In this document: positions 17,687 through 19,244 of the stretch, piece after piece | How the letters are laid out: each line of letters opens with the position of its first letter | How positions within the stretch are numbered: position 1 is the first letter of the stretch | Assembly: GCF_037094685.1 (NCBI RefSeq) | Contig: NZ_CP146614.1 | Location: 4,836,001 to 4,900,000 of the forward strand | Reading direction: 5' to 3' | Length of the DNA stretch: 64,000 nt | Source: Massilia sp. METH4 | Lineage (GTDB): Bacteria; Pseudomonadota; Gammaproteobacteria; Burkholderiales; Burkholderiaceae_D | Program-made: the position numbers and the translations under genes | Notes under the pieces: generated by a model | Told to the model about the DNA's origin: nothing | Seen by the model: the letters and a program-made list of their open reading frames with translations, nothing else | The model's database searches: none

Positions 17687-17745
17687 CGGTGTCGGACATT
17701 TTTTCCGGGTGCTTCATCCGGAAAATGTGTGCGACACCGGTTTTC
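17687..17745. repeat. GTGTC-type hairpin repeat (locus B, left copy)
   Basis: Copy of the dispersed element: GGTGTCGGACATTTTTTCCGG, loop, CCGGAAAATGTGTGCGACACCGGTTTTC. It is the left member of an inverted pair; its partner is split by the insertion sequence (GAAAAC at 17776-17781 and CGGTGTCGCACACC from 19191). Confidence 0.85.
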
Positions 17746-17870
17746 TCTTGAGGCGGCCGGGTCGGCTCCGGACAAGAAAACCAATGGGATGGACGCCCCC
17801 ACCCTGAGACGGCATCGATGTGCCAAAGTGGAGCTGTCGAAGTTTCACTTAACCAGAGAGGGGCGTCACC

Positions 17871-18896
17871 ATGAAGATTACGACATGCAGTATGGATCTG
17901 GCAAAGGAAGTTTTCCAATTCCATGGCGTTAATGCGAGCGGCAAGGTCGAGATGCGATGCCAGCTCCGGCGTGGCAAGGTGATGAGGTTTTTCTCTAACA
18001 TGCCGCCGTGTCTAGTTGGGATGGAGGCGTGTGGCAGCGCGCATTACTGGGCACGGCAGTTGCAGAGCCTGGGCCACACGGTCAAGCTGATAGCTCCGCA
18101 GTTCGTCAAGCCATACGTGAAGACCAACAAGCACGATGCAGCCGATGCCGAGGCAATCTGCGAGGCAGTGCAAAGGCCAAACATGCGCTTTGTGCCGATC
18201 AAGACTATTGAGCAGCAGGCGATTATCGCTGTTCACACGGCGCGTAGTGGGTTCGTCAAGCAGCGTACTGCTCAGGCCAACCAGATTCGCGGCCTGCTGG
18301 CGGAGTTTGGCCTCGTTGTCCCGAAGGGTTTGGCCGTGCTCAGGGAGCGAGTACCGGCACTGCTCGACGAAGCGAAGGATGAGTTGCCCGGCATTTTTCG
18401 CCAGACCATTCTGGAACTTCTCGATCACTTGAAGGTGCTGGATAGAAGAGTCAACGAATTCGAGCTGGAAATTCTGAAATGGCACCGCTCGAACCCGATG
18501 TCCAAACGGTTGGAGAAGATACCCGGCATAGGACCGATCACAGCCAGCGCTTTGGTCGCGGCGATCGGTAACGCGAGGAACTTCGCCAATGGCAGGCAAC
18601 TCGCAGCGTGGATCGGCCTAGTACCCAAGCAGCATTCGACAGGCGGTCGCACGAATCTTCTGGGCATCAGCAAAAGGGGCGATACGTACCTGCGTACTTT
18701 GCTCATTCATGGAGCCCGAGCGGTGATCCAGCATGCAGTCAAAAAGGATCCAAGCAAGAGCGGCTGGCTTCACTCACTGCTTGGGCGACGGCACAAGAAC
18801 GTTGCGGCAGTAGCATTGGCCAACAAGAATGCAAGGACTGTCTGGGCCCTATTGGCTCATGACAGAGAGTTCCGAGCCGATTACGCTGCCGCGTAA
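17871..18896 (+). CDS. IS110-family transposase (bridge-RNA guided recombinase)
   Basis: 341 residues. The N-terminal RuvC-like domain shows the DEDD tetrad (Asp9, Glu52, Asp89, Asp92). The C-terminal Tnp domain begins with a helix-hairpin-helix (IPGIGPITASALVAAIGN) and contains QHSTGGRTNLLGISKRGD, where the Ser (about residue 256) is the expected nucleophile. Length and all catalytic residues are intact, so the element may be active. IS110-family recombinases use an RNA encoded by the element to choose donor and target. The ATG is preceded by a GAGAGGGG site. Codon choice differs from neighbouring genes, as expected of an acquired element. Confidence 0.95.
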   Translation: MKITTCSMDLAKEVFQFHGVNASGKVEMRCQLRRGKVMRFFSNMPPCLVGMEACGSAHYWARQLQSLGHTVKLIAPQFVKPYVKTNKHDAADAEAICEAVQRPNMRFVPIKTIEQQAIIAVHTARSGFVKQRTAQANQIRGLLAEFGLVVPKGLAVLRERVPALLDEAKDELPGIFRQTILELLDHLKVLDRRVNEFELEILKWHRSNPMSKRLEKIPGIGPITASALVAAIGNARNFANGRQLAAWIGLVPKQHSTGGRTNLLGISKRGDTYLRTLLIHGARAVIQHAVKKDPSKSGWLHSLLGRRHKNVAAVALANKNARTVWALLAHDREFRADYAAA

Positions 18897-19175
18897 TCGG
18901 CTCGGCTGAGGGCCTTCGCGGAGGGTAGCGGACAGTTTTTTGGAAGCGGAGCAGTACATTCCACCGATTGCACAAGCGATCAAGAAGTGATGGCAAACCA
19001 GGTAAGACCGTGGTCGGCTTAGCCCGCGCGACACCAAGCACCTTGAGTGCGTTAAACCGAGGGGGCGTCGACCAGCAAATCCCATCAGGGACAGTGGCAT
19101 CAGCCACATCAAAGTCCGAATGTACGGGTGCAATCTTTACCTACAAACCATCACGAAAAGAAAGCTTGGCATACC
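18897..19175 (+). ncRNA. Predicted IS1111-type bridge RNA region
   Basis: The non-coding segment between the transposase stop and the right inverted repeat is where IS1111-subgroup elements encode their bridge RNA. Supporting details: GCAAACCA (18993-19000) resembles the left target flank (GAAAACC); GCGACACC (19028-19035) is the exact reverse complement of the right target flank (GGTGTCGC); and between them TAAGACCG / CGGCTTA can form a stem, giving the internal-loop layout expected of a target-binding loop. ATCCCAT (19079-19085) is complementary to ATGGGAT in the left end of the element. Boundaries of the RNA and the guide assignment are inference. Confidence 0.55.
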
Positions 19176-19190
19176 GGGGGCGTCCATGTA

Positions 19191-19244
19191 CGGTGTCGCA
19201 CACCATTTTCGGGCATGAACCGCCCGAACATGGTGTTCGACACC
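19191..19244. repeat. GTGTC-type hairpin repeat (locus B, right copy, IS-split)
   Basis: CGGTGTCGCACACCATTTTC, loop, GAACATGGTGTTCGACACC. Its first six bases (GAAAAC) are left behind at 17776-17781 on the other side of the insertion sequence. Confidence 0.85.

Follow-up and report, generated by a model that had tools for sequence, protein, structure and literature searches.

An IS1111-group insertion sequence in Massilia sp. METH4 with a predicted guide RNA fitted to the edge of a REP-like repeat

The 64,000-nt stretch of DNA analysed here (the window) carries a complete insertion sequence (IS) of the IS1111 group, and we consider it very likely (with a probability of roughly 0.93) that a bridge (seek) RNA encoded downstream of its transposase gene directs its insertion into the edge of a REP-like repeat. 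In the model that we propose, the downstream non-coding region would yield the RNA, whose right guide (19028-19035) would pair with the top strand immediately to the right of the insertion point and whose left guide (19052-19059) would pair with the bottom strand so as to span that point. Using both guides, the recombinase would insert the element between GAAAAC and CGGTGTCG, which together form the edge of a REP-like hairpin (the target being GAAAACCGGTGTCG, also written GAAAACCGGTGTCGC). Two further slots would read the element's own ends, and transcription would probably start from a promoter that exists only when these ends are joined in an excised circle. By analogy with published elements, the RNA would be made and bound by the recombinase, it would pair with DNA as outlined, and recombination would proceed through the circle as an intermediate. 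The element and its copies, the fold, the covariation of guides with targets and with ends, and the target repeat were established by comparing sequences. The features on which this model is built are as follows (window coordinates).

17688..17745, minus strand: second REP-like unit, inverted, upstream of the element (hairpin and GGTTTTC)
17776..17781, plus strand: GAAAAC, the target's left half and the head of the REP-like unit; identical in all seven copies
17782..19190, plus strand: whole IS1111-group element, 1,409 bp, from CAATGGG (7-nt left extension) to GTA (3-nt right extension)
17789..17800, plus strand: left subterminal inverted repeat, ATGGACGCCCCC (from its sequence and the end parse)
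17871..18896, plus strand: transposase/recombinase, 341 aa, with DEDD and Transposase_20 domains (Pfam PF01548, PF02371)
18986..19137, plus strand: predicted bridge/seek RNA (leave-one-out covariance model R1, 143.5 bits, E = 5.2e-46)
18993..19000, plus strand: left guide of the original prediction, here read as scaffold (no covariation with targets)
19011..19018, plus strand: 5' side of the helix that closes the target loop (two-sided changes in 8 of 8 pairs; helix also in R1)
19028..19035, plus strand: right target guide, GCGACACC, predicted to pair with top-strand GGTGTCGC; slot covaries with the right flank in 67 elements
19038..19050, plus strand: hairpin separating the guides (19038-19041 pairing with 19047-19050; two-sided changes in 2 of 4 pairs)
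19052..19059, plus strand: left target guide, (TT)AAACCG; slot covaries with the left flank in 67 elements
19067..19074, plus strand: 3' side of the helix that closes the target loop, pairing with 19011-19018
19079..19085, plus strand: candidate donor guide 1, ATCCCAT, complementary to left-end ATGGGAT (17784-17790); covaries with the left end
19120..19125, plus strand: candidate donor guide 2, ATGTAC, the same as right-end ATGTA/C (19186-19191; slash, element boundary); covaries with the right end
19166..19171, plus strand: -35-like box TTGGCA of a putative circle-junction promoter, read from sequence only
19176..19187, plus strand: right subterminal inverted repeat, GGGGGCGTCCAT (from its sequence and the end parse)
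19191..19244, plus strand: right half of the target, C followed by the REP-like hairpin GGTGTCGCACACC...GGTGTTCGACACC

The element, its copies and the repeat it occupies

The transposase matches both PF01548 (DEDD_Tnp_IS110) and PF02371 (Transposase_20) above the curated cut-offs, and four residues that are invariant across eight sequences (D9, E52, D89 and D92) probably constitute the catalytic DEDD. A DEDD (RuvC-like) transposase with a Transposase_20 domain characterizes the IS1111 group of the IS110 family, and so does the long non-coding region that follows tnp (18897-19175, 279 nt). The subterminal inverted repeats of the window element measure 12 bp and are extended by CAATGGG on the left and by GTA on the right, a layout (inverted repeats with 7-nt and 3-nt extensions) that likewise places it in this group. 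A right extension of 3 nt is typical of IS1111-group elements. For the left side, a 7-bp extension is named as a group feature in PMC11187229. The boundaries were drawn from seven copies with differing flanks and by analogy with 80 parsed loci (see below), in 75 of which the element and the right flank begin with the same base; the exact crossover of the window element is ambiguous by one C.

Seven near-identical copies of the element were found in the genome, every one at a different place, and their 279-nt regions were reported as 100% identical over all 279 bases (six matches at 504 bits and one at 499). GAAAAC precedes the element in all seven, and CGGTGTCG follows it in six. The remaining copy (L011, G000:C1:3313030-3315230) has CGACACC as its right flank and matches the right guide at 3 of 8 bases; there the REP hairpin may have been deleted after the insertion, or the site may be defective.

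Joined across the element, the flanks (GAAAAC directly followed by CGGTGTCG) give a 14-mer that is intact at 116 sites of the 6.88-Mb genome, these being sites of the repeat elsewhere; the element may thus have inserted without target duplication, a trait of the IS1111 group. With at most one mismatch 263 sites were counted, and for the reversed pattern none. The original prediction had called the target a high-copy repeat, which these counts bear out. In the 30 exact sites inspected in context, the target forms the edge of a hairpin, with the closing arm CGACACC lying within 70 bases downstream (exactly in 26, with one mismatch in the other 4). The edge of an inverted unit occurs at most 80 bases upstream at 13 of these 30 sites, and at least 11 inverted pairs within 125 bp were registered among 100 of the 116 exact sites. 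REPIN-like inverted pairs, with tens of bases between the units, are frequent, and upstream of five of the seven IS copies lies a second, inverted unit. Among the insertion sites the hairpins differ in length and loop, and what the copies have in common is linear sequence.

Four Y1_Tnp (RAYT-type) genes are present in the genome. One of them (L077, 1234-1866; G000:C1 near 350,000) is flanked by REP-like units: one side carries an intact unit, and the other, directly beyond the stop codon, a unit split by an IS copy. No unit with at most two mismatches was found near the other three in 3.3 kb per locus. We classify the repeat as REP-like because of its high copy number, hairpin edge, inverted pairs and the unit beside a Y1_Tnp gene, all read at the sequence level; the RAYT of L077 may be what mobilizes it. 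Exact target sites were recovered from 10 of 74 genomes of the genus (host included), with at most 14 per genome in the 73 others as against 116 here.

The predicted RNA and its target guides

A covariance model (R1), built from 37 relatives, the RNAs of the consensus fold below minus that of the window's element, found a single match in the window (18986-19137), which upholds the original proposal of a bridge RNA in this region, and exactly seven matches across the whole genome, all of them element-borne copies. Applied to 47 loci outside the model (distant, unparsed or near-duplicate), R1 reached at least 50 bits in 42, matched weakly in L118 and gave no match in L060, L086, L121 and L126. 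Two loci (L062 and L151) contained two bridge-RNA matches each, indicating neighbouring IS1111 elements. No bridge-RNA family of Rfam matched; the only family returned was a miRNA one, at 21.7 bits (far below its gathering threshold of 150), on the upstream hairpin.

The consensus fold was derived from 38 of 45 RNAs (identity >= 57%), seven more divergent ones having been left out by hand (L090, L111, L128, L130, L131, L134 and L153). It comprises 33 pairs, with 96.5% of cells paired (vs 86.8% when shuffled) and changes on both sides in 17 pairs, and the helix best supported by such changes is the one that closes the target loop (19011-19018/19067-19074). Within this loop GCGACACC (19028-19035), a small hairpin and TTAAACCG (19052-19059) follow one another from 5' to 3'. 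Since the outermost helix differs between the predictions (GATGGCA/TGCAATC in the 38-sequence fold; UGAUGG/CCAUCA in R1, where it overlaps donor slot 1), our confident claim is limited to the target loop. Folded as a single sequence, the RNA is unremarkable (z = -1.51; 17 of 200 shuffles as good).

On the right side, reverse-complementing GCGACACC gives exactly GGTGTCGC, which occupies bases 2-9 of the right flank; this exact 8-mer arose by chance in 1.1% of 5,000 sequences simulated for the 279-nt region with a first-order Markov model. On the left side, the guide would pair with the bottom strand of AAAC/CG across the insertion point, its first two bases being mismatched; no site matching it at the mismatched position -5 (TAAACCGGTGTCG) occurs in the genome. 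Across the seven copies the right guide matches at 8/8 bases in five, 7/8 in one and 3/8 in one (L011), and the left guide AAACCG at 6/6 in all. The segment matching the top strand (19028-19035) therefore lies 5' of the segment matching the bottom strand (19052-19059), as in a bridge/seek RNA of this group.

The two slots were compared with the targets of related elements. A total of 110 loci were gathered (30 by a family search, the window's own included, and 80 from named genomes), of which 80 passed a strict parse of both ends and 30 failed it: 8 were truncated, 20 had no convincing end pair, and 2 (L058 and L091) had a good end pair but too little left flank. Setting aside 3 loci without a clear donor slot and 10 redundant ones left 67 elements. 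A looser parse (93 loci) was discarded, as it had misread the donor guide for an inverted repeat in several loci.

In these 67 elements the right target guide (RTG) slot scored 7.42/9 against its own right flank and 4.70 against those of other elements, and the left target guide (LTG) slot 6.79/8 against its own left flank and 3.88 against the others; none of 20,000 permutations reached either observed value. As permutations ignore relatedness, a nearest-relative test (against the relative with a different site) was added to account for kinship, and the own target won in 60 cases for RTG (1 loss, 6 ties) and in 62 for LTG (3 losses, 2 ties). In the best register, right-flank bases 8 to 1 were paired with the RTG in 78-93% of elements; for the LTG the range was 88-97%, over left-flank bases -5 to -1 plus bases 1 and 2 of the right flank. 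We stress that the scores are maxima over a small position window (for own and other targets alike), so these per-position frequencies are somewhat inflated. For the RNA of the window, all of the 66 other targets scored lower than its own in the right slot, and 2 of the 66 equalled or exceeded it in the left.

Guides for the element's ends, and other readings

Two further slots of the RNA appear to correspond to the ends of the element. Candidate donor guide 1 is complementary to the left end; candidate donor guide 2 is the same as the right end and would therefore pair with the bottom strand of that end. Over the 67 elements, slot 1 scored 1.61/2 with its own end vs 1.15 with those of others (permutation maximum 1.40), being Watson-Crick at both bases in 45 elements and pairing with a G-U in 9 more; two earlier, wrong registers of this slot gave null results (2.58 vs 2.56, P = 0.34; 1.48 vs 1.49, P = 0.63). 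Slot 2 scored 6.52/7 vs 5.48 (permutation maximum 5.82), its landmark being, as judged by eye, mislocated in 8 of the 67 rows, which were kept in the counts. The nearest-relative test gave 58 wins, 1 loss and 8 ties for slot 2, and 48 wins, 11 losses and 8 ties for slot 1, where the position was chosen partly by its own left-end match and the test is thereby tilted in favour of slot 1. The scaffold-only placement behind the 1.61/2 value agreed with the end-matched placement in 63 of 67 elements. Taken as comparative evidence, these patterns argue for donor guides in the IS1111 group, with two slots reading the element's ends; potential donor-binding bases have been noted in the multiloop of many IS1111 RNAs (PMC11208160).

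The joined ends would also form a promoter, as expected of an IS1111-group circle (TTGGCA-17-TACAAT): its -10 box, TACAAT, arises from 19189-19190 joined to 17782-17785, at a spacing of 17 from the -35-like TTGGCA. A junction -10 box of TATAAT or TACAAT was found in 57 of the 67 elements, and the -35 match was best at spacing 17 (spacings 13 to 22 compared).

The original prediction had built the target loop from GCAAACCA (18993-19000) and GCGACACC, as the two sides of one internal loop, and we now regard this arrangement as extremely improbable. Its right half stands, for the match of GCGACACC is exact, the slot tracks the right flank across the 67 elements, and the consensus fold does place GCGACACC in the target loop. 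Its left half fails in the same comparisons: the partner of GCGACACC in the fold is 19052-19059, and 18993-19000 falls outside the loop, within a largely conserved stretch (GATGGCAA...); the slot scores 4.03 with its own target vs 4.11 with others (P = 0.84, 67 elements), and against the nearest relative it records 21 wins, 30 losses and 16 ties. GCAAACCA does match GAAAACCA of the left flank at >= 6/8 bases, but such a match turned up in 88% of simulated sequences, so that the resemblance is no more than expected by chance. In this layout the bottom-strand match would moreover come first (5'), whereas in the IS1111 seekRNAs tested in PMC11187229 it follows the top-strand match.

Other readings do without guides altogether. 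The transposase could recognize the REP hairpin through contacts between protein and DNA or through the shape into which the hairpin folds, with the RNA matches incidental, and the position of the insertions (all at the same place beside a palindrome that adjoins the target) is what this reading would expect. We nevertheless judge it very unlikely, since targets differ among the 67 elements and the guides follow them, and since the copies share linear sequence while hairpin length and loop vary. That the downstream RNA mainly regulates expression of the transposase, with no guide function, has a precedent in what was proposed for Ssr9 of ISPpu9, an RNA encoded downstream of tnp in a REP-targeting IS110-family element and reported as an Asr9 antagonist (PMC8450116); regulation would not predict four slots covarying with the target and the element's ends, and for the element studied here we find this account scarcely credible. 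The reading that we favour remains a downstream RNA whose guides would direct insertion into the REP-like repeat edge.

Relation to known systems and biological meaning

Published work on the seekRNAs of IS1111 and IS110 elements describes a downstream RNA, a circle and a junction promoter (PMC11187229), and the traits described there (strand order included) agree with the window element in sequence. For ISEc11 (IS1111 group), that source reports a seekRNA from the downstream non-coding region, subterminal inverted repeats and a circle-junction promoter, as well as a short 82-nt seekRNA form that sufficed for transposition; ISEc11 and the window element share the placement of the top-strand match 5' of the bottom-strand match (PMC11187229). 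The ISEc11 target, GTGAAAATACTG, is not the repeat targeted by the window element. In the RNA of IS621 (IS110 group) the order of the target guides is reversed. The same reversal is described for the IS110-type RNA of ISEc21 (PMC11187229). The IS621 bridge RNA bears target and donor guides, and its natural targets are REP elements; RNAs of the IS110 group reside in the left end, with subterminal inverted repeats of only 2-3 bp observed (PMC11208160), whereas the window element has its RNA downstream of tnp and 12-bp repeats.

Among the closest known counterparts is ISPa11 (IS1111 group, Pseudomonas aeruginosa), all six PAO1 copies of which lie in REPs, between the sixth and seventh REP bases (PMC1525189), and with whose transposase a 96-nt seekRNA co-purified (PMC11187229). 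The insertion offset is the same as that of the window element (if the unit is taken to start at GAAAAC), while host and REP are different. ISPpu9 and ISPpu10 (IS110 family, Pseudomonas putida KT2440) each have seven of seven copies in REPs (PMC1525189). Downstream of its tnp, ISPpu9 encodes a small RNA that was read as a regulator (PMC8450116); this element differs in also having solitary copies of the RNA gene, and in this genome R1 found only the seven element-borne RNAs. An IS110-family recombinase aimed at a high-copy repeat had thus already been published (PMC1525189, PMC11208160), and since both REP targeting (ISPa11, ISPpu9, ISPpu10, IS621) and IS1111 guide RNAs are on record, the kind of system is known. 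The original prediction is partly supported: its idea was right, as was the right half of its guide pair, and the left half was wrong. A search of titles and abstracts (mostly outside subscription journals and wholly outside bioRxiv) returned nothing on this element or this repeat.

What the present data add is a guide-by-guide demonstration in 67 elements, together with comparative data in favour of IS1111-group donor guides. We put forward tentatively, at somewhat less than even odds, the wider reading of an IS1111 RNA with four separately evolving guide slots, carried by an element that follows a REP family expanded in this species. If so, target choice and self-recognition would both be coded in RNA (two slots each), and the element would be a parasite on another repeat, tracking it even to a site beside that repeat's own RAYT gene. 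Its pair of target guides would have become tuned to a REP family whose expansion, among the genus genomes searched, is confined to this species, with the left guide still mismatched to the repeat, as if retuning were recent or incomplete. The simple rule by which targets and ends can be read from sequence would help in choosing natural RNA-guided recombinases, and the element would provide another host and another repeat for IS110-family elements that use REPs as numerous landing sites.
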